A stretch of DNA of 64,000 nt, from contig NZ_CP017641.1 in the NCBI RefSeq assembly GCF_001983935.1, forward strand, positions 6,870,001 through 6,934,000. The letters are read 5' to 3'. Numbering within the stretch: the stretch's first letter is position 1; the number at the start of each line of letters is the position of its first letter. The stretch is from Fuerstiella marisgermanici (GTDB lineage Bacteria > Planctomycetota > Planctomycetia > Planctomycetales > Planctomycetaceae). The notes beneath the pieces were generated by a model. That model did no database searches and was not told the DNA's origin. It worked only from the letters and a program-made list of their open reading frames with translations. Shown piece after piece: positions 22,906 through 53,434 of this stretch. The position numbers and the translations under genes were made by a program.

Positions 22906-25900
22906 TTAGCGGCCAGGTGGCAACTGATCCAGCTTGGCCTTAGCTTTTTCAGCGAGCTCTGAGCCGGGGAATTCCTTGACCAGATCCTTGTAGCTTTTGC
23001 TTGCCGCTTCAGGACGCTGTAGCAGGACCTCACAGCCGGCTGCCTGAAACAGCCCGCGTGCACGCCAGTCGTCGAAGGCGTAGTTAAGATAAACGCGATA
23101 GTATTCCTTCACTGCGTTCTGATAGTTCTTTTCGAGCAGCCACGTTTCCGCGATCAGAAACTGACAACGCGCGGCCGTTTCTGTGCCTTTGCCGACTTCA
23201 TCAGAAACAACAGACGCAAAGTAGTCACGCGCTTTGGCAAAGTCGGGGTTCGGCTGAGTCTTCCAGCGGCGCCCTTGTACGTCTCGCATTTGAAACAGAA
23301 ACCGCGATTCTGCATTTCGCTGTTCCAGTTCCGCCGCGATCGGATCGATATCAGTGAACCGCTTTTCTGCCAGAGCCGTTTCGGCAAGGACGACCCAAAT
23401 TCGTTCCGTCCATGGTTCGGCCTTCAACTGGCCGTCGACAACCGCCGCTCGAAGTGTGGTCAGTGTGGTCTTTGCTTCTTTAGGTTGCTGTTGATCAAGC
23501 AGGCCTTCCGCGTAAAGCAAACCGACGTTCGGGGCCAGTGGGCTGTTTGCGTAGTTTTCGGCAAACTCCTTGCCAAATTTCAGCACGTCCTCCCACTGCC
23601 GTTTGGCTGCTTTGATATCCACCACGTGGTAGAGCGCGGCTTCTTTTTCAGCAGCGCGGTAATCTTCGTTCGCCGCGATTTCGATGAATTCTGCCAGCGC
23701 ATTGTCCAGTCGGTTTGCCTGCATGTCGCTTTCCGCCAACGACAATCGCGCCTGACCGGCGAACTTACCATTCGGAAACTTATCGAGCAGGCGACGGTAA
23801 ATTTCATCCGATCGATCATACCTGCCTGCCTGCAGATTGACGTAGGCCCATTCATCCAGAATGCCTTCCAGCTGTTCGGAATCACCGAACCGTTCAGCCA
23901 GCTTTTCCCATACGGCGTCTGCTGCTTTGGTGTCCTCACCAGCGAATTTCAATCGAGCATAGTTGCGTCCTGATTCCAGCAGGTAGCGATCCGCGTTCGG
24001 AGCTGACGATTCCTGTGCCGTTTTTTCCAGAGCTTCGTAGGTGGCAAGAAACGAGGCCGCAGCTTCATCTTTCTTGCCGGCGTCTCGCAGGCTTACGCCC
24101 CGCATGAAGGATGATTCGTGTGCGGCGTCGGATTCCGGATAGGTTTCGGCGATGTCCTGAAACACCGTGGCGGCCTGGTCGAATTCGTCAAGCCGATAGT
24201 GACACCACGCCAGCCCGGACAGCGCTGACAGATGCAGCTTTGGTTCGGATTTCCTTTGTACAGCAAGCTTGAAAAATCGAGCTGCAGCCGCGTATTCCTT
24301 TAGCTGCCACGCAATTTCCGCTGACTGCAGTGTCGTGGCCCAGGTTTGCGGATCGTCTGGAAAGTCTTTCATCAGTTGTGCCAGGTCGGCATCCGCTTGC
24401 TGAAACTGCTTCAACTGGCAGTTCGCAATCGCTCGGCCATACAACGCATCGGCAGCCTTTGCAGGGTTCTGTTCCAGTTTCAGAAATGTGTCCGCGAGCT
24501 GGATTGCTTCGTCATACTGTTCCAGTTCCAAACGAGAACGTGATGCGAGCGCGATGGCACCGAAATAAGCATTCCACTTCGGATCTTCGAATCGGTCCTG
24601 CAGTTTCTTGTACGCCGCCGCTGCGTCTTCATAACGCTCGCCTTTGTACAGGGCTCGGATGAGGTGATAGTTTCGCTGCATCGTTTTTCGTTCGCTGGAA
24701 GCATCTGCCTCAGCGACTTTCTGTAGCAGCAAAATTGCCTCGTCCGTCTTGCCGCTGTTTAGCAGCATGCGTCCCTGCAGCAGGCTTAGTTCAGGATCGT
24801 CTGCCAGTTCCGGGTGCTCCTTCTGAAGTCGTTCCATCAGCCGCGAAGCCATTGGCAGATCGCCGGCGTCCATCTTTAATTCGGCCGCATTAAACAGGCT
24901 TTCAGCAACTCGTGAATTGCCTGGCCATCGATCCGCCAGATCCATAAACATCTGGGCCGCAACGTCCTTTTTCTGATCCAGAACCTCGACCTGAGCTCGG
25001 TTGAACAGAATTTCGGCCGCCAGTGGTGTGTCTTTAGCGGCAGCGAATGCGGAAGCCAGTTCTTCACGGGCAATGTCGAGTTCGCCCAGTTCTCGCCGGC
25101 ACAATGCCTTCCACAACGAAGCCATTGTCGACGCACTGGAGTCGGCAGGCACGTTCTGCAGTGTCGTCAGGGCCTGTGCGTAGTTTTGTGACTGAAACTT
25201 TGCGATCCCTGAATTCAACGCCGACGATGCAGCCACCGGTGTTCCGGAGAATTCCGTCACCACACGATCGTAGATCTCGGCCGCTTTCACATAATCTTTC
25301 TGCGCCATGTGAACGGAGGCGACACCCGCCAAACCTCGAGGTGTATGAGCGGCCGACTTCAGGTCGACGACCTGCTGGAACAGATCGAGCGCTGGTTCCG
25401 TTTGATTTTGAGCCTGTTTGGATCCGGCCAGGGCGATCAATGCGTCGGCCAGAATACCAATGGGAGGTTTCTGTGCGATGAGTGGTTCAAGCACACGTTC
25501 GGCGTTGGCGTGATCGTCCAGTGCGTTGTAGCTTTTTCCCAGCAGCAGCGAGGCCCATTGGTTCAGGTTGTGTCCTGGGTGATCTTTCAAATACAGCGAA
25601 AGCTGTTCAACGGCAGGTTTGTAGTTTTTCAAGTAGTAGCTGCATTCGCCCAGCCCGTACTGTGCGTCGGCGAGGTTTCGGCTGTCGGGGTTTTCGGTGA
25701 TGAAGGTTTGAAAGTGGGTGCGAGCGGGGCCGTATTTTTCCAGGGAATTCAATGACAGTCCAAGGTACAGTCGCGCAAGGCTGGCGCGAGGGTGTTCCGG
25801 GTGCTGGTTGAGGAATCCTTCGAACGCATCTGCGGCGTACTGCCACCGTTGTTTCTTGAACAGGCCGGCCGCAAACATGAAATCAGAATCGGCGTCGAAT

Positions 25901-25980
25901 GCTGCGGCTGGCAACGGAGCTAAGCAGAGCATCACCAACAGAAGTGGCCGTTGGCAGGTTCGGGTGAATAGCGTGTTCAT
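22906..25980 (-). CDS. Exported TPR-repeat protein (1024 aa)
   Basis: A large secreted protein made almost entirely of tetratricopeptide-type helical repeats. The N-terminal signal peptide is MNTLFTRTCQRPLLLVMLCL followed by APLPAAA-FDAD. Repeats start near residue 35 (FAAGLFKKQRWQYAADAFEG; ASLARLYLGLSLNSLEKYGP) and run to the end (CQFLIAETWLLEKNYQNAVK; AKAKLDQLPPGR). Many units resemble the YbgF/BamD (YfiO) subtype. No enzyme domain is visible, so it is probably a periplasmic or outer-surface scaffold. It is the last of three consecutive exported giant proteins, 83 nt after the 2090-aa gene, suggesting co-transcription. Confidence 0.85.
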   Translation of the reverse strand: MNTLFTRTCQRPLLLVMLCLAPLPAAAFDADSDFMFAAGLFKKQRWQYAADAFEGFLNQHPEHPRASLARLYLGLSLNSLEKYGPARTHFQTFITENPDSRNLADAQYGLGECSYYLKNYKPAVEQLSLYLKDHPGHNLNQWASLLLGKSYNALDDHANAERVLEPLIAQKPPIGILADALIALAGSKQAQNQTEPALDLFQQVVDLKSAAHTPRGLAGVASVHMAQKDYVKAAEIYDRVVTEFSGTPVAASSALNSGIAKFQSQNYAQALTTLQNVPADSSASTMASLWKALCRRELGELDIAREELASAFAAAKDTPLAAEILFNRAQVEVLDQKKDVAAQMFMDLADRWPGNSRVAESLFNAAELKMDAGDLPMASRLMERLQKEHPELADDPELSLLQGRMLLNSGKTDEAILLLQKVAEADASSERKTMQRNYHLIRALYKGERYEDAAAAYKKLQDRFEDPKWNAYFGAIALASRSRLELEQYDEAIQLADTFLKLEQNPAKAADALYGRAIANCQLKQFQQADADLAQLMKDFPDDPQTWATTLQSAEIAWQLKEYAAAARFFKLAVQRKSEPKLHLSALSGLAWCHYRLDEFDQAATVFQDIAETYPESDAAHESSFMRGVSLRDAGKKDEAAASFLATYEALEKTAQESSAPNADRYLLESGRNYARLKFAGEDTKAADAVWEKLAERFGDSEQLEGILDEWAYVNLQAGRYDRSDEIYRRLLDKFPNGKFAGQARLSLAESDMQANRLDNALAEFIEIAANEDYRAAEKEAALYHVVDIKAAKRQWEDVLKFGKEFAENYANSPLAPNVGLLYAEGLLDQQQPKEAKTTLTTLRAAVVDGQLKAEPWTERIWVVLAETALAEKRFTDIDPIAAELEQRNAESRFLFQMRDVQGRRWKTQPNPDFAKARDYFASVVSDEVGKGTETAARCQFLIAETWLLEKNYQNAVKEYYRVYLNYAFDDWRARGLFQAAGCEVLLQRPEAASKSYKDLVKEFPGSELAEKAKAKLDQLPPGR

Positions 25981-26063
25981 CGATTCTTCAACGTGGCAAA
26001 ATTTCAGTGACCTCAGTCAGAAGTTTACGTGCGTTGACGCAGAAGCCGAAGCAGTTAGGCGTG

Positions 26064-29000
26064 TTATTGCGAAAATCCGGAGTCTGAATTCAAATCGGTT
26101 GAGCTCAGGATGTCAGACGACGTCAACGTAGGTTTGGTAATTGCCGTGTGATCCGTCGCGGTCCGTTGGTCGTCAACGGTTCGCTCGGGGACTCGAAACC
26201 ACCACGGTGCAATGATCAGCAACATTGCTGACAACAGCGAAGCACCGACAAGCGGCGACGGAAACGTCGGACTGGTGATAGTGATGTCTTCAGCTGCCTC
26301 GAGATCCACCAGCAAGGCTCCCTGGTCGAGTAAGACCTGCAGTCGTCGAGTCAGCAATTGAGCGGCTTCGGTCGCGCCGACGGATTCTGCTTTCATTGCC
26401 TGCCACATTCCATCCAGTGGCATATTCGTGTCTGAGCCTTCTGCGTCCTCGGCGAGCGATACCTCCAACAGTTGCAGGCCGCGTGACAGCGAATCATGCA
26501 CACCTGCCTGAAACGCCGATCGTGAGAGAGTTGCGTTTCGTAACTTCCACCAGCGACTGCGTGAACTTGCTGGAACGATGATGGCCTGCTGCGACAACTG
26601 AGCGGCCTGAAGCTGTGGCACCGAAACGCCATAGTCTGTTTGACTGATCTCACGATCAATTCGTCGTAGCCATTCAATTTCCACTGCAGCGATTCGTCCG
26701 GCCGGGCTGAGTTCGATCGTTTCGCCGCTGTTCCGAAAAGCTTGCGATGTCCCGTTCACGCTGACATCGGCAACGGCGCAATTTTCAGGAATTTGGACCG
26801 TAACCGGGCCACCTGCCTGAGCGCGAAAAACCAGGAATGCCGATTGGCCCGACACATCGCCGCCTTCAGAAAAATGCAGGACATGCTGGCCAAACGCAAA
26901 CGACACATCGAGCGATTCGGTGATCGTCGTGGTCTTTGTGACACTGGCTTCCGGGCGTAGAGTGACCTGACGAGAGTCTGCATCGAACCGGCACTCAGCA
27001 ACATCGGCGTTTGCGGGATCATCCAGTACGTCCACGTACACCGCCGCATCGGCAACCCACTGCGGTATTTTTGCGGCGCCTTCCAACGGAGTCTCATGAC
27101 TTCGCAAGTCGAACGCGCGACACGCCGTCACAACGATATCGGCATCGAAATTCGGAATCGGGAACACCAACTGGTCATCAGCAAGTGTCGACGAAACAGT
27201 GGGCAGCGCCAGAGTTACTCGTGTGTCGCGGGAAGTGCCGGAAACTCGAGGGATGAAAAAATGGCTGCCAGACACGCCGCATTTCTGCGCTTCACCGTTC
27301 CGGACCATGATCGGCGCTGAATCGCCGAATTCTGATTCCGGGCAGCGAAAGCGAATGTCGAAGGGCACATCGGGAGTCTGCAACGACAGGATCTGTGCGT
27401 AGCGGCTTTCGCCGTCTGCGTCGTAAAGCAGCATGACCAGTTCGGCCGCAATCTTCTTGGTTGGATTGCCTCGTACGACGATCGGTTTGGAGTCGTCTAC
27501 GACACTCAAGCTGATTGGGGTCGCGGTAAGAGGTGTGTTTTCGATGTCGACATGATCCACTGGCACGGCGGCGCCAAGGTCGGCGATGAATGTGTCGATT
27601 TCGGACTCTGCCGACACTTCAAGATCGGATTCTGTGATCTGAATTGACGCAGGCAGCAGCACAACGGGCAGCGGTAAGTCCTGACCGGAAGGGCGGGGCA
27701 ACGTGCCAGTCGCCACAATTTCGAGCAAGCCCTGAGTTTCTTCCGGAAGCGAAATGACCAGTTGATCACCGTGCCGCGTCCAAGACTGCAAACGGGAAAC
27801 TCCTTCGCTGCGTGCCGTTACGTCGTTAATGCGAACGTCGGCAGAAACCTGCAACGCCTGACGAAAAACGGGCTGCCCGGTAACCTCAACTTCGCACCGA
27901 CAGGTCCACTGTACGACGTTGTCTTTAATGACGGCTTTCTGCGAAAGTCGAGCCACTCGTGTTGCTTGAAGTTCAGCCAGTTCTATTGAAACCACATCGA
28001 TGGCGTTGGGCACATCTACCACCGTGTCGCCGGCCTGCACGATTTGGAAACTTTGTGGCTCCGCAGTAAGTGGCGCTTCGTCCAAAGTTGTGTCGCCGGC
28101 CATGACCGAGTTGATGACATACTGTTCGGACGTTCTGGGTATCAGGCGTGTGGAATCTGTTCGGATCCCGTTTACCTGAGACAGTACGTCTACGGGAATC
28201 TGGTGAGTCAAGCCGATCGGCGGGTCGAACAGCAGCTTCACAATTAACGCCTGCATACCGGACGCGTCTGGCGGGCAATCCACGACAAGGCTGCTTCCGG
28301 CCATCGTCCATGCCAGCGCTCCGCCGGTGACTGATTGCACGCCGGTGATGCGATAACGAGGATCAGTTTCGATGACGACTTTTTTCGCGCGTATGTCTGT
28401 GGGAACGACCTTATATTCGCAGGTCAGGCGTTGCTGAGTTGGCAACGTGTCGGCGACGCACATCAGTGAACTACGCTGCTGACTTTTCGCGTCTGTGGTG
28501 CCCGAGTTTCGGATCTTCAAAGACAGTTCGACGGATCGCGTATTGAAAACGACCGGAAAGCGATTGACACTTCCATTGACGACCAATGGTTGCGCATCTG
28601 GGACTGACGCAAGCGTGATCTGTTCAACGGATTTAGAAGCATCTTCGAACTCAATGATCGTTTCTGAAGATGGCGGATACGTTACCGTTAACCGGTAATC
28701 CTGCGGCGACCGACGCGGCACTGTGCGCGCTGAGTATTCAACGGAATGAACCTCCCAGCGCCCCAGCGAATCGGGGCCGGCTGAGGCGGGGGACTGCCGT
28801 TCCGAATCCAGTGGTCGGTCTGGAAGTACTTCTTCCCCCGAGATCGCCAGGTGAAATCCGCCTTTCGGATTGCGTTCGGGAAATACGGTTGCGCCATCAA
28901 CACGACATTCGACCAGCGTCATGCCCTCAAGTGGAATCGTTAGTTTCGCGGCTTTGCCAGGCAATGCAGCGACATCGCAGGTCACATGCGCTATGCACGA

Positions 29001-32000
29001 TCGCGGCGATTCCATTCGGACGTGGACGACGGACGAAACGACATAGCATTCCTGATCTGAGTTCGGTTGACCTGCCTTAAGAGTTTCAAGGTATCGGTTG
29101 TCCACGTACGCAAATGGAGCGGTCTGACGGTCGGTAGACGGGATCAGAATCGCAGGTCGGTCTCTGTTTTCCTGGCCATGTGCTGCTGGCCAACAGCAGA
29201 GGAACGGCAGCAGCAGGCTCGCGCGGACGATTGCAGTGCCGACCTTTGGTGTGCGGGTAACCCGTCGGCTGCGCCAGATCGTGCTCTGAAATCGGTACAC
29301 AGCGAACGCCATCGTTCCTGCCGCCACGCCAACAATTGTGGCGGACCTTGCCGGGGTATTAAGGATCAGCAATAGAGCTGCTGTCGTCAGCAGGACCGCG
29401 GCCGGAAACCAGACAGAGACTGGTCGCTGACGATCCACAAACAGCCATGCAAGACACACAACCGTAGCCCACAGGATAGAAGCCGTAAGATCGAACTGCC
29501 GATTCCTCACACGCAACTGAAGCGACGACTTACTGTCAGACATGTTGATGCTGACCACATCAGTTCGATCCATCGCCGCCAGTTTCCAGCGGGCCAGAAA
29601 TGCGCTAAGTGCCTCCACCGATTGCGCCTGAGTCGCATGGTCAACCGTACTCCGAATCAACTCCGTCGTTTCATCAACGGGGCGCAGATATGTCGGGCTG
29701 TTGACATCCAGCTGACGTTTTTGCGGCGGTAGCACGAAGACGAAACTCGTTGCCGACTGCGATTCAGGAAACGTGATCAATGAAACAGGCCAACGCCCGT
29801 CCTGTGTCAGTTGCGATGCGAACTCATACAGGAAAACGATCTCGGACTGTTCCGCTTCAATGTCGACGGGAACCTGCAGAGTGGCGCCGTCGCGGTCCGC
29901 AAAAACGCGCCTTCCGTTCACCAGGACGATCGGCGTTAACCTTGTTGGGCAGCGGCATATCAGCGTGGACCGAGTGCCACTTGCGCCGATCATCACACGT
30001 TGCAGGATTTCTGCTGCATACCCGTTGGGTTGTGGTCGAAACATGACGAAAGCTGAAGAGGACGATTCCAGCCGCGACACTGTCGACAGGCTCTTATACA
30101 GCATCCACGATCCTTCAAATGGTTTGTCAGGATATGGTTCCAGCTGCATCACGGGCGCTGTGTTGCTGAGGATGAGTTCGAAAATGCCTTCGGGCGGTCG
30201 GACAGACCCGCCGGAGTCTCGTGTGCCCAACACATCGATCATCGTGGCAGGCATCTGGTCCTGCTGTGGTCGTTGAGCTATCAGTGTGATGTCAACATCG
30301 TCTGCCACGGCGTCGGCCGGAATTTCCAGAATCCAGATATCGAACACCGGCCCCGTTGACTGCTTTGTCAGTCGCAACAGTGGCTCGCGCATCGAAGCTT
30401 CTGAAATCCGTATGTCGGAATTCGCTGTCACGCGAAGATTCAACCGCTGAGGAAGTTCCTGCTCAGCGCGGATTCGCAGCCGAGTTGATTCCGTGACGGT
30501 GCCTTGGTTCTCGCTGACGGAATATTCCAACATGGCGTCGTAGATGAGTCCGGGATCTTCCGCCAACTGAAGCGTGTCTTCCAGTTCTGACCGTTCGAAG
30601 AACGTATACGATTCGAAGTCGTCAGACGTCAGCCACGGTTCGATGTTCTGCAGCGTTTCCAATGTCAGCGGCGTTAAGCGACGGGATTCTGCATTCGACA
30701 GGACACTGGACAACTGAGCGGTCCGAAGGCACGCCAGATCGACTTGTCGACGATACTGTGCATTCACAAATTCCGGTACGGCTCCGGCGACCACATTTTC
30801 GCGGTCCGTGGACTGCAGGCGGATTTCAATTGCCTGTCCGGATTCTCCGGTGACTGGTGTTCGCAGAAACACTTCCACATCAGCCATGTCCGCGTCGTTG
30901 GCCGATTCCTGAATCAGAAACAATAGCGGCAGGTTTGAATTCATTTCGGTCACGCCGGTGACCTGCCACGTGGTCGGCACCTGCCAGTGGACTCGGCCAA
31001 GACTGCCAGTCTTCGCTTTGATGTAGATGAACGCGCTGGCCTGCCCGCTGTCGTCGTCAACCGCCGGACGCACAACGACCGATTCATCTACGACCGGTGT
31101 GGCAGGAGTCAGGAAAGCTGTGGCCGCGGCATCGGCCGAAAATTGACTCAGTTCCAATGTTTGAAAGCCGTCCGCCGCATACGCCACATCGCGTTCGAGC
31201 AGCCCGTCCAACTGCAGGCTTGAGACTGTCAGTTCAGGAGAGACCATCAACTGCAGTCGTCCCGACTTCAAACGCGTATTGCCGCCCGATTCGCCAAACC
31301 GCGAACGCCAGGAATCAGGGACCAGTAGCGGAACCCTGACTTCCTCAAGAGACGTGCGATCAATAGCGGCTTGAATAATCATTGTCGACGCCGTGGGGAT
31401 CTCCGGCACTTCGACAGACAAATGTTGGTCCTGCGTTTCTAGAATCCATTCCGGGCGGCTTTGAGTTCCAATTTGAACGTTCTGAATTCGGCACGGCTGG
31501 CTTACGTGAAACGTCAGGCGGGCTTCACTTAACACGGTTGGAATGCCCACTTCCCATTCGACCGTCGCCGCAAAACTGTCGACGCGCACTCGGGTGGCCA
31601 CTGCCAGATTCAGCTCGCCCTGGCCATTGGCGTTGTCGCGTCTGACGCAGCTGATAGTGAGTTCTGCGGGGTTGGCGGGGTACAGCACCCAGTCTGTGTG
31701 GCGTTCGGTTTTTTCAGCAGGCACAACCAGCGCGTTTGAGCTATCGACGGAAACGCCAGCGTCAGTCCGTAGTCGAAACAAGGCCACGGCAGAGGCGGGC
31801 AGGGTGAGTTGAAAGACGGCCGTCTTGCCCACCAGGCGGCTGTTCGCTTCCCATGTACCTGTGATCGTTTCAGATGCGGGTGGTATCAGTGGGATCAGGT
31901 GACCGTTGGAATCTGTTGCCAGCGTGAGCGGCAGGTCCTGCGAAAACAGCCGTAGATTGTTCAGGTTCGTCCGACCCAGTGAAACGGGATCTTGCGCAGA

Positions 32001-32336
32001 CACTTCTGACGTATCCAGTTCCAGCAACAGTTGCCCGCTTTGCAGTGACTCGTCTTTCAGCACTGCAGAATATTCCGATCGTTTAACGCTTGCCTCAGTC
32101 GGCTTGCGCGAATCCGCTCGCCGCTTCAGCAACTGCTCCAGTACGTCGGCTTCTACAAACGTGTAGCGATCTGAGTCCTGAAATCCCTTGAGCTCTTCGG
32201 GCGAGAGTGTGCGTACCGTAACGTCGTCCGGAATCGCGATGCCGTTAAGTGTTGAGCCCGGCGGGCGCGTGGGCTGCTGAGCATGCGCGGACGTTGCCGT
32301 CCATGCAGTCAAAATTGTCAGCAGAACTCGCAGCAT
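26064..32336 (-). CDS. Giant exported membrane-anchored protein (about 2090 aa), unknown family
   Basis: I do not recognise a family. ATG 32336 opens a signal peptide (MLRVLLTILTAWTATSAHAQ) and has AGAAGG upstream; a frame extending to 32591 would overlap the upstream gene and is unlikely. The protein has two halves of similar plan. The first has Ser/Thr/Val-rich, beta-strand-type sequence, then about three membrane segments around residues 945-1015. An internal signal-peptide-like stretch follows (LLLPFLCCWPAAHGQ, about 1040-1055). The second is another beta-rich exported region ending in a membrane helix (LVGASLLSAMLLIIAPWWF). Both halves start with a similar motif (YTFVEADVLEQLL and FAYVDNRYLETLK), so a fusion or duplication of an ancestral gene is likely. 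Confidence 0.75.
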   Translation of the reverse strand: MLRVLLTILTAWTATSAHAQQPTRPPGSTLNGIAIPDDVTVRTLSPEELKGFQDSDRYTFVEADVLEQLLKRRADSRKPTEASVKRSEYSAVLKDESLQSGQLLLELDTSEVSAQDPVSLGRTNLNNLRLFSQDLPLTLATDSNGHLIPLIPPASETITGTWEANSRLVGKTAVFQLTLPASAVALFRLRTDAGVSVDSSNALVVPAEKTERHTDWVLYPANPAELTISCVRRDNANGQGELNLAVATRVRVDSFAATVEWEVGIPTVLSEARLTFHVSQPCRIQNVQIGTQSRPEWILETQDQHLSVEVPEIPTASTMIIQAAIDRTSLEEVRVPLLVPDSWRSRFGESGGNTRLKSGRLQLMVSPELTVSSLQLDGLLERDVAYAADGFQTLELSQFSADAAATAFLTPATPVVDESVVVRPAVDDDSGQASAFIYIKAKTGSLGRVHWQVPTTWQVTGVTEMNSNLPLLFLIQESANDADMADVEVFLRTPVTGESGQAIEIRLQSTDRENVVAGAVPEFVNAQYRRQVDLACLRTAQLSSVLSNAESRRLTPLTLETLQNIEPWLTSDDFESYTFFERSELEDTLQLAEDPGLIYDAMLEYSVSENQGTVTESTRLRIRAEQELPQRLNLRVTANSDIRISEASMREPLLRLTKQSTGPVFDIWILEIPADAVADDVDITLIAQRPQQDQMPATMIDVLGTRDSGGSVRPPEGIFELILSNTAPVMQLEPYPDKPFEGSWMLYKSLSTVSRLESSSSAFVMFRPQPNGYAAEILQRVMIGASGTRSTLICRCPTRLTPIVLVNGRRVFADRDGATLQVPVDIEAEQSEIVFLYEFASQLTQDGRWPVSLITFPESQSATSFVFVLPPQKRQLDVNSPTYLRPVDETTELIRSTVDHATQAQSVEALSAFLARWKLAAMDRTDVVSINMSDSKSSLQLRVRNRQFDLTASILWATVVCLAWLFVDRQRPVSVWFPAAVLLTTAALLLILNTPARSATIVGVAAGTMAFAVYRFQSTIWRSRRVTRTPKVGTAIVRASLLLPFLCCWPAAHGQENRDRPAILIPSTDRQTAPFAYVDNRYLETLKAGQPNSDQECYVVSSVVHVRMESPRSCIAHVTCDVAALPGKAAKLTIPLEGMTLVECRVDGATVFPERNPKGGFHLAISGEEVLPDRPLDSERQSPASAGPDSLGRWEVHSVEYSARTVPRRSPQDYRLTVTYPPSSETIIEFEDASKSVEQITLASVPDAQPLVVNGSVNRFPVVFNTRSVELSLKIRNSGTTDAKSQQRSSLMCVADTLPTQQRLTCEYKVVPTDIRAKKVVIETDPRYRITGVQSVTGGALAWTMAGSSLVVDCPPDASGMQALIVKLLFDPPIGLTHQIPVDVLSQVNGIRTDSTRLIPRTSEQYVINSVMAGDTTLDEAPLTAEPQSFQIVQAGDTVVDVPNAIDVVSIELAELQATRVARLSQKAVIKDNVVQWTCRCEVEVTGQPVFRQALQVSADVRINDVTARSEGVSRLQSWTRHGDQLVISLPEETQGLLEIVATGTLPRPSGQDLPLPVVLLPASIQITESDLEVSAESEIDTFIADLGAAVPVDHVDIENTPLTATPISLSVVDDSKPIVVRGNPTKKIAAELVMLLYDADGESRYAQILSLQTPDVPFDIRFRCPESEFGDSAPIMVRNGEAQKCGVSGSHFFIPRVSGTSRDTRVTLALPTVSSTLADDQLVFPIPNFDADIVVTACRAFDLRSHETPLEGAAKIPQWVADAAVYVDVLDDPANADVAECRFDADSRQVTLRPEASVTKTTTITESLDVSFAFGQHVLHFSEGGDVSGQSAFLVFRAQAGGPVTVQIPENCAVADVSVNGTSQAFRNSGETIELSPAGRIAAVEIEWLRRIDREISQTDYGVSVPQLQAAQLSQQAIIVPASSRSRWWKLRNATLSRSAFQAGVHDSLSRGLQLLEVSLAEDAEGSDTNMPLDGMWQAMKAESVGATEAAQLLTRRLQVLLDQGALLVDLEAAEDITITSPTFPSPLVGASLLSAMLLIIAPWWFRVPERTVDDQRTATDHTAITKPTLTSSDILSSTDLNSDSGFSQ

Positions 32337-32391
32337 TCGGATGTGACCTTCTACAAACGTGATTTCACGCGTGGCATGTGCTGTTGCCTGG

Positions 32392-35300
32392 TTACGAAAC
32401 AGAGAGGCCGGAAGCTGCCGAAGGAATTGCACCTGAGGCCGTGCTGCCTTGTCGACCATCGCTGGTGATTGCTGGCTTCTCCACTGTAAAGATCGTGCTG
32501 TGATCGTATTCTTCCGGCGAGAGCGGTGTGATGTCTGCCCGCCGGTTAATCCCTCGCTGCAACAGCGCCGCAACCAGCGCGATGACGGCACCTGGCACTA
32601 ATCGAATCAGAATCAACTGAGCTGGCCCTGGGACAACAGCGACCAGTGCAGTGGCCGCTGCGGTTACGATGGCCGTTGAGGTCATGAGCGGGATTGGCGA
32701 CAGCTTTAGAAAAGAGAAGTAAACCAACAGCCCGACTGCCGCCGCCAGAAGAAGAGTGACACTGCGGGAAACGGAAATCAGGACCGGCGCGTCGCGCAGT
32801 AGCGGTCCAGCCAGAATTTGATTGTCACTGGTTGCGTCAGCTGCTGAGCCGATCAGTTCCATGACTGATGAGAAAATGTCTGTTTGGTAAGGTGAAAGCA
32901 GTGCAGTAACGGCCTCCTTCACGCCCGCGTTACTGTGGCCGAGCAGACGCACGTCCGTCAGAGTTGCCAAATCCGTCATGTGCCTGCCGTAATACATCGT
33001 CGATTCGGAAGGCGACTGGTTCAGTATCCAAATGACATTGCAGTCCTGGTTCATGCCCACGATTTCGGGGACTTGCGGGCGCCACAGCGACAGCATGGGC
33101 GATCGCCGTTGAAAAGGTTGTCTCACAATCAACGTGATCGTCCGCGGTTGTTCTGGCCGATGAGCGACTTCGGAACGCACCTGGATGACAGAGTTGCCAT
33201 CGTCGGATGGTGACACGTTGTCAATGAAAGCCTGTTCGCCGCCCAGAAACCCTTCTTCCGCGACAACGCCTTTCGGCAGCGAAAACAATGCACGTTTGAC
33301 GGGTTGTTGATAGACCCCCGTGATGGCCGTCACCAGTTCGGAACCTTGTACGGCACTTTTCAAAACCAAAAACCGAGGTTTGTTGTCATTCGAATTTTGC
33401 AGCGAATGACGCAGGTTGACGGCAACGGTGGCCTGTCGCGTATCGGACACCCACGCGGCTGAGAATTCTTCGGAATAGATGCGTCCCCAATCGGCGCTGC
33501 GATCAACAACAATTGATTCCGGTTCGTTTGTTCCAATGACAATCTCTGTCAGTTCCTGCTCCGTCGAAGACGGTAGCACCAGCGGCAGAAGAGCCGCCTT
33601 GGCCTGTAGAGAATCCGGTGGCCAGTAGTAGTCGATTTGTAAATGGAAGATGTCTCGGACCGGTTCCGGCAGCGCGTAAGTGATGTCGCTGCCTTCCACT
33701 GACAGACGTTGCAGCGTTTCTTCGGAATCGCCAAAACGGACGGACGGGTTAACTCCCGGCACTGACAGGCGAATTTCTGAAAGGTCTCGATGCCGGACGT
33801 CAAACGTCAGCTGCTGACGCACATACACGCTTTCCTGCCGCACCGAAATTGCTGCTTTGACGCTCACTTTGACTTCCGGTTTCTGCGGCGTTATCCGAAT
33901 CTGGACGGCCTGTTCGGTGGCGTCGACCAGTCGAGCAGTCAGCGGCACGTTGCGTTGCTTCAAAGATTCCGGCCAACGACTGGAAGGCAGCAGTGGGAAG
34001 GTCGACTGGCTGTCCTGTGGAGAAACCGACATCGAAAATTCGTCGGATTCAATTAAGGATACAATCGTTGTGTGAGGTGTTGGCGACACAATGTCGGGCA
34101 AGACGATGGAAAAACCTTCCGCGTCCTGAGTCGAATTGCGAGCGCGGAACGCCTGGATTTCGATTTCAAACTGACCGGAGATGCGTTCCGGCCCAAAGCT
34201 GACGGTATAGGTGTCGGGGACATCAGGAGACGGAAAGCCGGCCAGCGTTTCGGACGAATCCCCATCAATCAGCCGAGTATCGCCGGACAGGATCGTCCAG
34301 CGATCTTTGCTGTACCCTGGCCACACAATGTTCATTTCGTTTAGCGAACCACTCACCATGTTGATCGAAAACCGAGCCGTCATCAGAATGTTGCTGCCTT
34401 CGGTTTCGAAACTGATGTGTGGCACCACAATGAATGATGCCTCCGTTTCGCTGACTTTCATCCGCAGCACAGATTCGCTGGACAGCAGCCGATAACCAAA
34501 CACGGCGGTCCGCGGTCCGCGAGATGTTTCGACTCGCTTTTGCCGCACGTCGCGAGTCCCCGGCCGTTCGGGAACAACTTCCAGACCCAACGGGGCGTAG
34601 ATTTCGATGTCTCCGGATTCGTTTGCCACACGATCGATGTCCGGCAACTGAATCGACAACTCATCTGCCGACAGCACGTTATTCAGCGCCAAATCATAAT
34701 GCAGCACAATGGCGCCCGTGACTGGCGCAGTGAATTCAAGAACAACAGAACCTTCGTCCGGCTGGTCTACAGGCTTCGCAATTTCCTCGTCGTCCGCGTT
34801 GCGACCGTTGATGGCAACTGTGCCAAACCCGGGGGGCAGTTTAATCTTCAGGCGATCGATCGAACCGCCCGTGATGGAAAGCGGCTGGTCGATTACCAAA
34901 GAAGCGGTCGCCAGATCCAGTTCCATTTTCGCTGCGGCAGTGGCTTGCACGGTCACTGCCATGCCGGCGTCTCGTGGAGTCGGCGTCCATGAGATGTCAG
35001 TCGTTTCTGACAGGCCCCAGGTTTCGAACACGGATGTCCCGGTTTCCGGATCAGTCTTCAGTTGAGATGGTTGGTCAGACGAAAGTTCGGCGGCGTCTAC
35101 CTGATCGCTTAGATTAAGCAGCAAGTGACTGATCGTGGCCGAAGGCGCGTCCAACCGCAGGCGACGGCGCCCGTTGGATGACACTCGGACCGAACCAATC
35201 AAATTCAGTGTCAGGTGGTGAGTTCCCTTGCCGTAAAACATCCAGCTCTTGAACGGAAGTCGCGTTTTTTCCGGCTGAGCTTTGCCCTGAAAAATGTTGG

Positions 35301-35751
35301 GCGTGTATCTAATGTCAGTCAGTTGATAGCCGTTAAATCCGACGGGAACCTCGACCCACTCCTGGTCCTGCCGCACATCGACGCTCAGTTTGACCTGCAG
35401 CTCTACAAAATCGCCTTTGACGGTGCCTTCAATCTTTAGCTCCTGCAGCTCGTAAAGCTGAACCGCGTTTTGCAGCAGAGCGCGCTTCTGGACCTCCTTC
35501 AGGATTTCATCTGAAAAGCCGGGCAGGGCGATCACTTCACCGGACGTCGGGTCTTTATAAATGACGGTGGACGAACCCGGCTTCAGGCTTTCAATGAAAC
35601 CCGGCATCGGGGCGGCTGGTTCGTTGTCCGAATTCGCGTTTGGCGACTCCTGCGAAAGCGCAACGCGTCCGGAAAGAACGCCAGTGCAGACGAATATGAC
35701 GCACAGGGCTCCGGCAAAACGGCGGAGGAGATGATTCGACCAGAAGGGCAT
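32392..35751 (-). CDS. Exported membrane-anchored protein (about 1119 aa), unknown family
   Basis: No known family is recognised. ATG 35751 (MPFWSNHLLRRFAGALCVIF) opens a signal peptide ending near ALSQ; a TTG at 35766 would add five residues. The long middle is beta-strand-rich with repeated sandwich-like segments (LKIEGTVKGDFVELQVKLSV; LRLDAPSATISHLLLNLSD). The C-terminus carries about three hydrophobic segments (SVTLLLAAAVGLLVYFSFL; TAIVTAAATALVAVVPG; LVPGAVIALVAALL) and then a short cytoplasmic tail. This plan mirrors each half of the 2090-aa gene 55 nt downstream. With the TPR gene, the three form an apparent operon of envelope proteins. Confidence 0.75.
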   Translation of the reverse strand: MPFWSNHLLRRFAGALCVIFVCTGVLSGRVALSQESPNANSDNEPAAPMPGFIESLKPGSSTVIYKDPTSGEVIALPGFSDEILKEVQKRALLQNAVQLYELQELKIEGTVKGDFVELQVKLSVDVRQDQEWVEVPVGFNGYQLTDIRYTPNIFQGKAQPEKTRLPFKSWMFYGKGTHHLTLNLIGSVRVSSNGRRRLRLDAPSATISHLLLNLSDQVDAAELSSDQPSQLKTDPETGTSVFETWGLSETTDISWTPTPRDAGMAVTVQATAAAKMELDLATASLVIDQPLSITGGSIDRLKIKLPPGFGTVAINGRNADDEEIAKPVDQPDEGSVVLEFTAPVTGAIVLHYDLALNNVLSADELSIQLPDIDRVANESGDIEIYAPLGLEVVPERPGTRDVRQKRVETSRGPRTAVFGYRLLSSESVLRMKVSETEASFIVVPHISFETEGSNILMTARFSINMVSGSLNEMNIVWPGYSKDRWTILSGDTRLIDGDSSETLAGFPSPDVPDTYTVSFGPERISGQFEIEIQAFRARNSTQDAEGFSIVLPDIVSPTPHTTIVSLIESDEFSMSVSPQDSQSTFPLLPSSRWPESLKQRNVPLTARLVDATEQAVQIRITPQKPEVKVSVKAAISVRQESVYVRQQLTFDVRHRDLSEIRLSVPGVNPSVRFGDSEETLQRLSVEGSDITYALPEPVRDIFHLQIDYYWPPDSLQAKAALLPLVLPSSTEQELTEIVIGTNEPESIVVDRSADWGRIYSEEFSAAWVSDTRQATVAVNLRHSLQNSNDNKPRFLVLKSAVQGSELVTAITGVYQQPVKRALFSLPKGVVAEEGFLGGEQAFIDNVSPSDDGNSVIQVRSEVAHRPEQPRTITLIVRQPFQRRSPMLSLWRPQVPEIVGMNQDCNVIWILNQSPSESTMYYGRHMTDLATLTDVRLLGHSNAGVKEAVTALLSPYQTDIFSSVMELIGSAADATSDNQILAGPLLRDAPVLISVSRSVTLLLAAAVGLLVYFSFLKLSPIPLMTSTAIVTAAATALVAVVPGPAQLILIRLVPGAVIALVAALLQRGINRRADITPLSPEEYDHSTIFTVEKPAITSDGRQGSTASGAIPSAASGLSVS

Positions 35752-35865: not shown

Positions 35866-36663
35866 TCAACTGAAGAGGGATGCAAGGGATTGAGCAATTG
35901 TGGGGCTGCTGGCGGCCAGCAGGCTTGGCACCATAATATCTATTGTATCACCCTTGATATCGGTCAGAGTTCCTCCGGCTTCCAGTACCAGCAACGCCCC
36001 GGCCGCCACATCCCATGGCTTCAGGCTGGTGGACCAGAACGCATCAATACGCCCCGACGCGACGCAGGCCAGATTCAATGCTGCCGATCCGCTTCGCTGT
36101 ACGGTTTGCATATGGCTCATCGAATTCAGGAACCGCTGAACAGCCGGATCGGTCGGATCGGCTCCAACCGGCAAGCTGGCCATGCCCATCGCCATTTGCA
36201 GATTGGTTTCGCCGCTGGTCGTAATTTTGGAACCATTCAATTGCGCTCCAGCTCCCTTCACTGCGGTAAATGTTTCGTCGCGGTTCGGGTCAAAGACGAC
36301 TCCGGCAATCAGGGTGTCACCCTTTTGAACGCCGATTGAAACCGCGTAGTATGGAAAGCCATGCACATAGTTAGAAGTTCCATCCAGCGGGTCAATGATC
36401 CAGCGATAGTCAGACGCTTCCGACGTCTGGTTCAGACCTTCCTCTCCCAAGTATCCGTGATCGGGGAATTCGGCCGAAATGATTTCGAAGATGGTTTTCT
36501 GCGACGCATGATCGGCCTCGGTCACGAGGTCCGCTCGTTTTTTTTCGCGCACCGAAAAACGCCCGACCCAGTCCTGCAGGATTGCACCGCCGGCATGAGC
36601 GGCCTTGATGGCTGCTGCCAAAAGTTGATTCGGGTCAATGGGTGGGGAAGACGGTTCAGACAT
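35866..36663 (-). CDS. Inositol monophosphatase family protein
   Basis: A Mg-dependent phosphatase of the IMPase/SuhB/FBPase-like fold, 265 residues from ATG 36663. Metal-binding motifs are complete: GEEG (Glu74/75), DPLDGTSNYVHGFP (Asp91, Asp94) and the distal PWDVAAG aspartate. The preceding VTEADHASQ is typical. An upstream in-frame start at 36726 would add 21 polar residues without family character, so it was not used. Likely substrates are inositol phosphates or related sugar phosphates; histidinol phosphate and PAP are alternatives that cannot be excluded. It is a separate unit 115 nt before the start of the giant-protein operon. Confidence 0.92.
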   Translation of the reverse strand: MSEPSSPPIDPNQLLAAAIKAAHAGGAILQDWVGRFSVREKKRADLVTEADHASQKTIFEIISAEFPDHGYLGEEGLNQTSEASDYRWIIDPLDGTSNYVHGFPYYAVSIGVQKGDTLIAGVVFDPNRDETFTAVKGAGAQLNGSKITTSGETNLQMAMGMASLPVGADPTDPAVQRFLNSMSHMQTVQRSGSAALNLACVASGRIDAFWSTSLKPWDVAAGALLVLEAGGTLTDIKGDTIDIMVPSLLAASSPTIAQSLASLFS

Positions 36664-36810
36664 GAATGTAGACAGATGGTGAAAGTTGCGTGACTGGTTG
36701 TTGATTGAGCGGTGCGTGTGCGACACAGGCTAGCACACTGGCCCTGTCGCCTGAACCGTGTAGCATAGGCGTACGTTTCGCACTTTCGATTGCGTGAGGA
36801 CTGACCTTTC

Positions 36811-50082: not shown

Positions 50083-50372
50083 TCACGTCGTGCCAAACGT
50101 CCACTGCGGCGTTGCGGGGACGGGAAACCGCCCCATCTTCACGTGGCAATATGCCCACGACCGCGCATCAATGATCCGCGTCGGAGCGTTCGGCAGCACC
50201 TCTCGCAATTCGCCGTCGCTCACGTGCGAGCGAATGACCTGCATGTCCGGATGAGTCGCGTAAGCCATTGCATAGGCCAGAAACCGCAATGGATCACTCA
50301 ACGCCTGCTGCAGTTCTTCGAACCAAATAACGCGGCGAGCGATCTCCTGGATTTCCGGAGTGTGATGATCAT
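50083..50372 (-). pseudogene. Small conserved-looking gene with a +2 frameshift near its start
   Basis: The frame ending at TGA 50083-50085 encodes a protein-like sequence (TPEIQEIARRVIWFEELQQA ... RIIDARSWAYCHVKMGRFPV ...) but has no ATG or GTG start; an in-frame TAA lies at 50383-50385. ATG 50372 overlaps the kinase stop as ATGA, like other junctions in this operon, but is in a different frame. Removing one AC from the ACAC at 50360-50364 joins them and gives M-I-I-T-P-E-I-Q-E-I. I recall about 100-residue bacterial proteins of this kind (HTPE..., RSWAYWN-like end), but cannot assign a function. An unrecognised alternative start (TTG 50301) would give only 72 residues. Confidence 0.55.
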
Positions 50373-53300
50373 TCGTTGCGTATTAGCGGCGCGGCTGTCA
50401 CGCGATCTCTGAAATCTCCCCATTCGAGTTTGCATCTGTGTTGGGGCAAACGCAGCGTCAGGGTCTCCCCACTTATCATCAATGATCCACCATTGCCGTT
50501 GCATTCCGCAATCGCATCACTAACACGAATTCTGAGCAATTCCACACCACTATCGGCGTCCCAGATGCGTACAGTCAAATCTTCACTGAACGTGACCACT
50601 CTCCGATAGTCCGGACTCAGGCTGGCCGCGATAATCGGTTTCACATGCCCGCTCAAAGAGAGCGTCGGAATCGGAAATTCAGTGTCAGCATCGGGATTTA
50701 TGATTACCTTATGTCCATCGTCACTGAAAACCAGCCATTTCCCTCGTTCCTGACTGTACCACAATGGCTCCATGTCTTTAGATGAATCAGTTGGTGAAGC
50801 CATCGGCCGAGGAACTGATGTTCCCGACGCTGAGGAGTTACGCACGCTACGGCGGTTGTTTATATCAACCTGGAATACCTCATTCTTGTCGGTCACCGCG
50901 AACAGCCAGTCGGGAAGTTTGTCTTTGCGGCGGTTGCCCACAAATTGTAGCCTGGTGATGCGGCAACCATGGTTTACGCAGCGAAACAGGTCACGGGCCG
51001 CGTTGGAGTGGATCACTAATTGCGAATCAGACGCAAAAGCCAACTCGAAATCGAAAACTGTGCCTTTCCCCCCGAAGACGCCGGCGGTGATCGGGTGGCC
51101 ATCCCCTTTATAGACCGCGAATCGCTTCGCTTTGTCCAATTTGTACGAATAGACACTGACGTCACCATTTTCAAGGCCGCACATCACAGTGCTCCCAGAT
51201 GGCGATGCGGTTGCAAAAGTTGGGCTGTCCGATTGCCTGATCTGTTTGACCAATTTCCTTTCAGTCCCTCGTCGAATCTGCAGCATTCGGCCATCTGAAT
51301 CGAGATCTAAGTATCCGGTCGTTGCCCATCTGTTTGGGAATGTGAGTCTTGCCATACTCGGAACGGGCGAAGCATAAGAATGCTTGCCACCCTCCATGCG
51401 CACACTCGGCCAATCTCGTTCTGAATAGCGAGTGAAAACAGGGTAGGGATCTGAGGCGACTTGGCTTTCATTAGTACCTTTTTCGTTCAATGGACGGACT
51501 GTCAGCGGCGACAGTCGCGTGTTGCAGTAAAACGGTTGGATACGACCGCTGATGGTCTGCACACTGACGACAAGCCACTTTTCACCGTAGAACACAACGC
51601 GACTATCACGGGCGTCCCACCTCTCGTTAGGAATCAGAGAGCCGATATCGGCGTGTCTGGCAGAACTGTGAACTTCGAGCCGGCCCGAACTTGTAAGGAA
51701 CGCAAGTTGTGACTGATTCGGTGAAACGGCCAGCGAACTTATCACGTCACCCTTGTCGGTCCGATACTCAAATGGCCCGAGAAACGGTGACGCCAGCGCT
51801 GTCAAGTAGTTGAATTCGAAGTGCCTTTGTTCTTCTGGCGTCTGCTGCAGCGTTGCCTGAGCGTCGACAAATCGTCCGCCTTTGATTTGAACACGTGCTT
51901 TCTCAAGTTGCCGCTGATATCGTCCGCTCCGCTCCTTCGCCTCAGAGAGCGTACGCAGTTCCTGTTCCGCGACGACTCGTGAATCAGAACTCTGAAGGGC
52001 CTTCCTCAGCCGTTCCGATTCTGCAAGTTGCGACTTCAGTTCATTCTTTGCATCCAACGCTTCCTGCGTCTGCAGTTCAGCCAGTTCCTTTTCTTTTTGC
52101 AAGTTCCGATTCAGCCGATTGGCCCGTTCTTCGGCGACCTGAGCGTCCTTTTCGGCGGCCACAGCGGCCAGCCGTTGCTGGTCGAAGGCGTCTCGGTCTT
52201 CGATAGCCCTTGAACGCGATATCGAAGCAACGACAGTCACGGCAATTAGCAGCAGTCCGACAAGGGCTCCGAGAGCCGATGGCACTGGATTGCGTTTGAT
52301 GATGCGTAGACCTCGCTGCACAATAGCCAAGGGACGAGCAACCACTGGTTCGCCTTCCAACCATCGATCCAGATCATCGCTGAACTTCTCACAGTCGGCG
52401 TACCGCCAGTCTGCGACTTTATTCATCGCCTTTTCACAGATCGCCGCAAGGTCACTCGATACTGAATCATCGATCTGACGAACATGCGTCGGATCATTAT
52501 CGCCAGCTACGGCGGCGACGACCAAGTAGGTGGAACCTGTGAACGGCGGCTTGCCGGTAAGACATTGGTAAAGCACGGCACCCAGACTGTATTGGTCGCT
52601 GTGCGGCCCAACTTCTGACAGCGTGCCGCGAGCCTGTTCCGGCGACATGAAGGCGGGCGTTCCCAGGATTCCGTCCTGAGTCTGTTGCGGCCCTTCTGCG
52701 TCAGTCGATTGATCATCAAGCACTTTGGCCAATCCAAAGTCTGCGATCTTGGCTCGACTGGTCGCACGATCGATCAGTATGTTTTCCGGCTTGATGTCGC
52801 GATGAATAATTCCTTCGGAATGCGCGTAGTGGAGGGCTGATGCGAGATCGCGGACCCATTCGACTCTTTGATTCAGCGTTGGCTGCTCTTCCAGCAACAC
52901 TTCCTTCAATGTACATCCGGCGACGAATTCCGTGGCAATATACAGTCGACCATCGTTTGTCTGGCCGTTCTCATAGACCGTCACGATATTCGGGTGATGC
53001 AGCTTTGCGGCACTGCGAGCCTCTGTCACGAAGCGCCGCCTGCGTCGCTTGTCGCCGGGGCCGAACGTCGGAACCTTTATCGCCACGAAGCGTTCCAGTT
53101 GAGGATCGTACGCACGATACACCTTGCCAAAACCACCTGCCCCCAGCACGGATTTCAATTCAAACCGTCCCAGCTTCCGCAGCGTTTGTTCTTCGCTGTT
53201 TTGAGCCGCCGGACTCACAAGATCACTCAGTGTTTGACTCTTAGCCAGCTGAGTGGTGTCCACAGAAACCGCGGCTTCTGTGGTATCCATCGTCATCTGC

Positions 53301-53434
53301 GACGCTTCCGACACGTCGCTCGCAACGAAGGTTTCACGGCACGCGGGACACCGCACCGTCTTATCGCGATTGGCTTCGTTGATCCGGAGTCGCTTGCCGC
53401 AGGACGGACAGGATGTTTTTAGAGTCGTTGTCAT
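50369..53434 (-). CDS. Zinc-ribbon Ser/Thr protein kinase with WD40 repeats
   Basis: A 1021-residue signalling protein. Order: zinc ribbon (Cys9, 12, 29, 32); Hanks-type kinase at about 91-360 with glycine loop GAGGFG, Lys120, HRDIKPEN (211-218) and DFG (232-234), all intact; a membrane helix at about 386-405 (SALGALVGLLLIAVTVVASI); a coiled coil at about 410-520; then a beta-propeller-like region ending in a clear WD40 blade (RRVVTFSEDLTVRIWDADSG). The kinase is cytoplasmic and the WD40 part probably periplasmic, suggesting an external sensor. The start overlaps the upstream gene by 4 nt (ATGA). It is a close paralogue of the broken kinase at 56812-61185. Confidence 0.92.
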   Translation of the reverse strand: MTTTLKTSCPSCGKRLRINEANRDKTVRCPACRETFVASDVSEASQMTMDTTEAAVSVDTTQLAKSQTLSDLVSPAAQNSEEQTLRKLGRFELKSVLGAGGFGKVYRAYDPQLERFVAIKVPTFGPGDKRRRRRFVTEARSAAKLHHPNIVTVYENGQTNDGRLYIATEFVAGCTLKEVLLEEQPTLNQRVEWVRDLASALHYAHSEGIIHRDIKPENILIDRATSRAKIADFGLAKVLDDQSTDAEGPQQTQDGILGTPAFMSPEQARGTLSEVGPHSDQYSLGAVLYQCLTGKPPFTGSTYLVVAAVAGDNDPTHVRQIDDSVSSDLAAICEKAMNKVADWRYADCEKFSDDLDRWLEGEPVVARPLAIVQRGLRIIKRNPVPSALGALVGLLLIAVTVVASISRSRAIEDRDAFDQQRLAAVAAEKDAQVAEERANRLNRNLQKEKELAELQTQEALDAKNELKSQLAESERLRKALQSSDSRVVAEQELRTLSEAKERSGRYQRQLEKARVQIKGGRFVDAQATLQQTPEEQRHFEFNYLTALASPFLGPFEYRTDKGDVISSLAVSPNQSQLAFLTSSGRLEVHSSARHADIGSLIPNERWDARDSRVVFYGEKWLVVSVQTISGRIQPFYCNTRLSPLTVRPLNEKGTNESQVASDPYPVFTRYSERDWPSVRMEGGKHSYASPVPSMARLTFPNRWATTGYLDLDSDGRMLQIRRGTERKLVKQIRQSDSPTFATASPSGSTVMCGLENGDVSVYSYKLDKAKRFAVYKGDGHPITAGVFGGKGTVFDFELAFASDSQLVIHSNAARDLFRCVNHGCRITRLQFVGNRRKDKLPDWLFAVTDKNEVFQVDINNRRSVRNSSASGTSVPRPMASPTDSSKDMEPLWYSQERGKWLVFSDDGHKVIINPDADTEFPIPTLSLSGHVKPIIAASLSPDYRRVVTFSEDLTVRIWDADSGVELLRIRVSDAIAECNGNGGSLMISGETLTLRLPQHRCKLEWGDFRDRVTAAPLIRNE

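Follow-up and report, generated by a model that had tools for sequence, protein, structure and literature searches.

M1 aminopeptidases (aminopeptidase N, LTA4 hydrolase, ERAP1) have an N-terminal domain of beta-saddle fold (M1-N), and Ost1 resembles these enzymes: ribophorin I/Ost1 carries tandem domains of the M1-N type ahead of a transmembrane segment. Inter-alpha-inhibitor heavy chain 1 combines a VIT and a vWA domain on one chain, extracytoplasmic function (ECF) sigma factors occur in pairs with zinc-finger anti-sigma factors, and the roles of VIT, vWA and zinc-finger anti-sigma domains are known. We compared with these systems a pair of giant genes, here called A and B, in a stretch of 64,000 nucleotides from Fuerstiella marisgermanici (NCBI RefSeq assembly GCF_001983935.1, contig NZ_CP017641.1, forward-strand positions 6,870,001 to 6,934,000), hereafter the window. 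An enlarged periplasm and many giant genes with no assigned role have been reported in Planctomycetota; for Fuerstia marisgermanicae, 45 giant genes above 5 kb and an unusual enlargement of the periplasm have been described, with a structural role among the two scenarios put forward for such genes (PMC5177795). We found that A and B comprise three homologous units, each apparently an array of beta domains followed by transmembrane helices. Our tentative reading is that these are scaffold or receptor arrays in the periplasm, anchored in the inner membrane, which ancestrally may have been the outside arm of a sigma switch.

Units and domains of A and B

Three large open reading frames (ORFs) lie on the minus strand at 22906-35751, as a first-pass annotation of the DNA had reported, and encode proteins of 1119 (A), 2090 (B) and 1024 (TPR) amino acids. 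Gene A (32392..35751, minus strand) starts with ATG and encodes a signal peptide, five beta domains, three transmembrane segments and a tail of ~55 residues; the program-called ORF begins five codons earlier, at a TTG (35766). Gene B (26064..32336, minus), likewise with an ATG start, encodes two fused A-like units, B1 and B2, and its program-called ORF begins at a GTG (32591) within A. The intergenic gaps are 55 bp between A and B and 83 bp between B and TPR. A scan for promoters and terminators found no excess over shuffles (1 vs. a mean of 5.0 and 14 vs. 16.3).

Neither A nor B matched a Pfam or NCBIfam model at E up to 1. A sequence search of PDB returned matches to A only at E 0.49 or worse and nothing for B, and a PDB profile search with the A alignment returned nothing at E up to 10. 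Weak Pfam matches among 28 A orthologues were set aside as scattered, since they fell in 20 families, each in one to three of the 28 proteins; among them was TgpA_N, found in two (best 2.7e-5).

We then compared A, B1 and B2 by profile-profile matching, with reversed profiles as controls. The A profile matched B at residues 54-968 and again at 1065-1921, each with 99.7% probability, and matched itself at an offset of ~167 amino acids (98.5%), while the reversed-profile controls reached at most 25%, within a transmembrane segment. Because A matches both halves of B, the two proteins are homologous and B consists of two fused A-like units. The first-pass annotation had already given A and B one plan, a beta-rich region with membrane segments, and this was borne out; their homology and internal repeats go beyond it.

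Each unit seems to contain about five related domains of ~170 amino acids ahead of the transmembrane helices. In A, the profile self-match, domain matrix and fold matches support an array of five tandem domains at residues 91-960 (32872..35481, minus), which we cut at 91-262, 260-430, 426-612, 612-785 and 782-960. The array of B1 (residues 73-903, 29628..32120, minus) has five domains by position according to the domain matrix, the model and the fold matches, and that of B2 (residues 1090-1971, 26424..29069, minus) has five by position, assigned from profile homology only. When these fifteen domains were compared with one another, 45 of 105 profile pairs reached at least 50% and 22 of 105 at least 90%, compared with none of 45 control pairs involving three reversed domains (maximum 43.7). 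All twelve same-position pairs among A, B1 and B2 at positions 1, 2, 3 and 5 scored at least 87%, as expected from the collinear full-length matches, and at position 4 only the pair A.4-B2.4 was high (86.5). Only at positions 1 and 5 were the best matches those between same-position domains; domains 2 and 3, and also domain 4 of A, matched one another about as well as their same-position partners.

Two distant loci (L188, L189; L numbers denote fetched loci and G numbers genomes) have three consecutive genes of single-unit size in place of the A-B arrangement. A split B in three others (L185, L186, L187) was not counted, because the open frames of 1173-1226 amino acids run into contig ends.

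Signal peptides were judged by eye and by hydropathy, and the topology proposed here likewise draws on sequence and hydropathy. A has a hydrophobic segment at residues 8-26, which we read as a signal peptide, and three hydrophobic, putatively transmembrane segments at residues 997-1064 (32560..32763, minus) that are helical in the predicted structure. The N-terminal segment of B and an internal one near residue 1040 fell below the hydropathy threshold in the window, yet both read like signal sequences. The middle of B (residues 949-1045, 29202..29492, minus; hydropathy in the window and in orthologues) holds transmembrane segments followed by the internal signal-like segment. Two segments exceeded the threshold at 949-991, the B1 model has helices at 931-1000, and one relative (L095) has four hydrophobic segments in this region. 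An even number of transmembrane segments here would hold both arrays of B outside. A and B together would place about fifteen domains in the periplasm. The last transmembrane segment of B lies at residues 2029-2047 (26196..26252, minus; hydropathy), and the tail of A is probably cytoplasmic.

Past the last transmembrane segment (window 32395-32559 and the corresponding place in orthologues), a short motif with threonine occurs in several A proteins, for example GSEDPT then L/V-R, or STIFT within the genus. That it serves as a phosphorylation or FHA-binding site would be a guess.

Fold of the beta domains

Mature A was modelled with AlphaFold2 (AF2) from 8 sequences, and B1 was modelled separately. 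For folding, a joint alignment of the three units was abandoned, as MAFFT and the profile alignment were only in partial agreement. The A model had a mean predicted local distance difference test score (pLDDT) of 64.8 and a predicted template-modelling score (pTM) of 0.34, and was good at model residues 57-219 and roughly 580-890. Fold searches with VIA-align matched A to the N-terminal domains of M1 aminopeptidases at 586-744, at 57-219 and, in fewer entries, at 751-955 (Z 10.7-11.4). The first domain (57-222) also matched inter-alpha-inhibitor heavy chain 1 (6fpy_B; Z 10.8, root-mean-square deviation [rmsd] 3.1, 155 residues), and this VIT-type match was tied with the M1 entries. In B1, residues 220-395 matched Ost1 (6ezn_A; Z 13.1, rmsd 3.3, 161 residues) along with many M1 entries at Z 11-12, and a single listed M1 entry matched residues 734-925 (Z 11.5, rmsd 3.3). 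Another Ost1 structure (7oci_A) matched B1 with Z 13.3 over 276 residues, but with an rmsd of 12.2. Taken over A and B1, the M1 matches listed had Z 10.7-12.4 and rmsd 2.7-5.0 across 139-159 residues, excluding 5ab0_C (rmsd 17.7).

Foldseek placed Ost1/ribophorin I first for A (E 1.6e-8; TM-scores 0.12/0.26, rmsd 23). For B1 it placed integrins first (E 2.6e-9, TM-score 0.1, rmsd 28), then Ost1. We set the integrin-alpha matches aside as an effect of long beta-arrays, given TM-scores of ~0.1 and an rmsd of 25-41 in nearly all of them.

In the predicted structures, several domains of A and B1 share the fold of M1-N domains, Ost1 and inter-alpha-inhibitor without being members of these families by sequence. 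The agreement in fold class between the separately computed AF2 models of A and B1 supports the M1-N-like interpretation, and on the strength of profile homology all fifteen domains appear to have this fold. The statement in the first-pass annotation that no known family is visible in A and B consequently stands for sequence families (Pfam and NCBIfam) and falls for fold, because predicted structures of A and B1 place several domains in a known class.

Conservation and gene neighbourhood

Protein searches over 58 genomes, including the window's own (a single contig of 8.92 Mb), found A in 29, B in 25 and TPR in 51 at the thresholds used. The set from the window's family consisted of 31 fetched stretches of at most 20 kb, 30 of which hold A; these come from 29 genomes, because the locus of G003 is split over two contigs and was counted twice. 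An A match on a 5.7-kb contig (G026) and the paralogous loci described below were dropped before counting. B adjoined A on the same strand in 28 of the 30 A loci, the exceptions being one that ends at a contig edge (L100) and one that shows no B (L114); the remaining stretch (L126) has B at the contig start, without A. The gene directly upstream of A in the window, of the inositol-monophosphatase family (35866..36726, minus; PF00459, 7.9e-67), is a conserved neighbour, and 22 of the 30 loci have it in this position and orientation.

The same genome has a second, paralogous pair, A'-B', at 2.147-2.159 Mb. The A' profile matched at least 65 of 244 genomes of the phylum, a lower bound because at most two candidates were scored per genome, and A'-type matches occurred in 25 of 27 genomes of the window's family, its own included. 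A pair of this kind is thus nearly constant in this family, yet A and B of the window match no Pfam or NCBIfam model. No relatives of A' were found in viral contigs. We fetched 39 further loci for an A' match: A was followed by B in 33, three had another order (L198, L199, L214) and three had one gene only (L202, L203, L220). The idea of an undescribed planctomycete envelope complex is supported insofar as an exported, membrane-anchored, beta-rich A-B pair is conserved. Among the papers listed, we found no title or start of an abstract describing the pair, which is a weak negative. In the paralogous locus, A'-B' appears by eye to be followed by a B12-type radical-SAM gene and a gene for a 457-aa membrane protein (L173, 6759-9452).

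The distant loci add a recurrent neighbourhood. Among the 39 loci, 25 come from outside the window's class, representing 25 of 35 such genomes with an A' match. In nine of these 25, A/B are preceded in the same orientation by a gene for a vWA/YfbK protein (F1), whose open frame spans 945-1294 amino acids where complete. The four F1 proteins scanned all had VWA and YfbK_C, and three had zf-HC2, one of them below the Pfam cut-off; the zinc-finger protein is presumed to be a membrane anti-sigma factor. A sigma gene precedes F1 in six of the nine loci, and in the other three the fetched stretch ends first; the three sigma genes scanned all had sigma-70 regions 2 and 4. Candidate starts allow 4-base overlaps between sigma and F1 (L185, L187, L197, L204, L217), between F1 and A (L185, L187, L204) and between A and B (L185, L187, L192, L204). 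Elsewhere there are gaps, the largest being more than 800 bases from F1 to a B-like frame (L220). Seven of the nine loci went into the F1 profile and four of the six into that of the sigma gene, so that only the remaining loci are independent finds. No F1 or sigma gene was found at the thresholds used in the other 14 of the 39 loci. When neighbours were compared between A'-B' and the deep loci, BLAST placed F1 in 8 loci and every other family in at most four.

The third large protein was correctly recognised as a tetratricopeptide-repeat protein (PF13174, 7.6e-45). It also scored 223.9 bits against TIGR02795 (Tol-Pal YbgF/CpoB; cut-off 90.1), but in 11 stretches of the 1024-aa protein. Its gene (22906..25980, minus) adjoins B here but does not belong to the conserved A-B locus. 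No TPR orthologue occurred in any of the 31 window-family stretches, and in four closed genomes TPR lies ~0.4-2 Mb from A (A/TPR at 3.28/5.33 Mb in G008, 3.50/3.12 Mb in G011, 3.16/3.85 Mb in G020 and 1.81/0.66 Mb in G025). Gene order is therefore conserved for A and B and not for TPR, and the proposed three-gene operon with TPR as third subunit is not borne out in relatives. In 13 of 20 TPR loci, one conserved gene directly follows TPR, of the MotA/TolQ/ExbB type in both that were scanned. No such gene stands beside TPR in the window, and the closest counterpart in the same genome (84% identity, residues 63-296) lies ~42 kb from the window's TPR gene. Because TPR is unlinked to A-B in relatives and often followed there by another conserved gene, it has probably come to lie beside A-B only locally. 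Judging from ORF sizes, the ExbB-glycosyltransferase order of relatives is apparently kept in the window's genome without an adjacent TPR gene (L174, 8929-11215, vs. L132, 11238-13209), which suggests that TPR moved.

Two observations concern other parts of the window. At 1660-4875, radical SAM, AMMECR1 and Memo domains are joined in a single protein of 1071 amino acids. Minus-strand genes at 50369-55904 overlap by 4 bp and encode a WD40-repeat Ser/Thr kinase, a protein of 381 amino acids that matches nothing in Pfam at 1e-5, and a protein combining FHA with a trypsin-like part.

Candidate roles and comparison with known systems

We tentatively prefer to read A and B as inner-membrane-anchored periplasmic scaffold or receptor arrays that were ancestrally the outside arm of a sigma switch. 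In each unit, about five M1-N-like beta-saddle domains would follow one another in the periplasm, held at the inner membrane by the helices on the C-terminal side of the unit, and we infer that the arrays would act as elongated rods binding envelope or secreted ligands. The order of sigma factor, vWA-YfbK protein, A and B, seen in some distant relatives, suggests that the arrays formerly served, and in some lineages still serve, as the external arm of such a switch, perhaps by way of the vWA domain. In the ancestral arrangement, the ECF sigma factor would be held by a membrane protein that has a zinc-finger anti-sigma domain at its N-terminus and a vWA domain outside, and the state of the envelope would be reported through contact between the arrays and this vWA domain. 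In the window's family, where sigma and vWA genes are not at the locus, the pair is probably a scaffold or receptor with other partners.

A related proposal is that an undescribed signalling system of planctomycetes works as a split receptor of vWA/VIT-like type, with A, B1 and B2 as its extracytoplasmic arm. Here the beta-arrays would act on the outside vWA domain of the membrane anti-sigma factor, the ECF sigma factor would be controlled by contact with the envelope or its surroundings, and the window's lineage would have kept two array pairs with other partners. We consider this version rather doubtful.

Several points weigh against our preferred reading. In the domain matrix, 60 of the 105 pairs fell under 50%, the first domains link less to other domains, and B1.4 reached 50% with just two others (B1.2 and B2.3). 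The family is also very divergent, with ~14-19% identity of A outside the genus. The A model is mediocre and its domains 2 and 3 are poorly modelled, the B1 model had a mean pLDDT of 76.6 and a pTM of 0.34, and the fold search covered just part of each of the two models, those of A and B1. The switch neighbourhood is far from general: 16 of the 25 distant loci have no F1 in the fetched stretch, the A-B stretches of the window's family have no match to the F1 profile (40 bits) or the sigma profile (F7, 30 bits), and the window's own genome has no YfbK_C match. YfbK_C is common in any case, occurring in 120 of the 244 phylum genomes and in 8 of 27 in the window's family. Finally, the proposed function is drawn from anatomy and gene order.

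Ranking close behind is the possibility, somewhat unlikely in our estimation, that A and B are purely structural, acting as periplasmic spacers or tethers that would maintain the enlarged periplasm of planctomycetes and fix the outer layer to the inner membrane, with the sigma/vWA linkage of some lineages only regulating their expression. The architecture of repeat arrays with transmembrane segments would suit this role, as would the enlarged periplasm and giant genes of Fuerstia, for which PMC5177795 counts a structural role among its scenarios, and the fetched loci of the window's family lack sigma and vWA genes. However, a rod anchored at one end leaves its far-end partner unspecified, and because the window's A and B have no Pfam domain, no wall- or outer-membrane-binding domain was recognised in them. 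The family also occurs in distant lineages.

After this comes a module for binding or chaperoning secreted proteins or glycoconjugates, like ribophorin I, which we think improbable. Ost1 gave the best VIA-align matches of B1 and headed the Foldseek list for A, but the former include one with a very high rmsd and the latter aligned with low TM-scores, while Foldseek ranked integrins above Ost1 for B1. Ribophorin_I was absent among the Pfam matches of the 28 A proteins, and a common fold is no proof of function. Last, the first-pass view of A, B and TPR as one three-part envelope complex, although the genes adjoin on one strand here with an 83-bp gap before TPR, is very improbable, given the absence of TPR from all 31 relative A/B stretches and its conserved link to another gene, whose counterpart lies elsewhere in this genome.

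Set beside described systems, the scaffold or receptor arrays that we prefer overlap with each only in part. With its 6.3 kb, B exceeds the 5-kb threshold of the giant-gene census in Fuerstia marisgermanicae and other Planctomycetes and was therefore probably counted in it; the available part of that report treats genes above 20 kb and one 8.7-kb gene and does not describe the A-B pair (PMC5177795). M1 aminopeptidases have the beta-saddle fold predicted for several A and B1 domains, whereas A and B carry about five tandem copies per unit. No M1 sequence match was found by Pfam in A or B of the window (E up to 1) or among the 28 A orthologues, and the HExxH zinc site occurs in one of 66 A/B proteins (L113) and in neither protein of the window. 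Ribophorin I/Ost1 has tandem M1-N-type domains ahead of a membrane segment and gives the best VIA-align match of B1. However, superposition is good for a single domain (6ezn_A) and poor for the tandem (rmsd 12-23), A and B have about five domains per unit, and the Ribophorin_I family matched neither the window's A and B nor the 28 orthologues.

Inter-alpha-inhibitor heavy chain 1 shares the VIT-type fold predicted for domain 1 of A, and 9 of the 25 distant loci have a gene for a vWA protein beside A/B. Its own vWA domain is on the same chain, whereas in the distant loci this domain belongs to a different protein, which sits in the membrane and has YfbK_C and in most cases a zinc finger, and A and B are without any Pfam domain, VIT included. 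The order of sigma factor, vWA-YfbK protein and A/B in 6 of the 25 distant loci recalls the ECF sigma/zinc-finger anti-sigma pairs. No such pair is at the window locus, and in the distant clusters the anti-sigma-like protein differs in having vWA and YfbK_C and in being followed by giant beta-array genes. Taken together, the fold class, the three arrays of about five domains and the distant sigma/anti-sigma neighbourhood make two anonymous giant proteins a testable envelope system.

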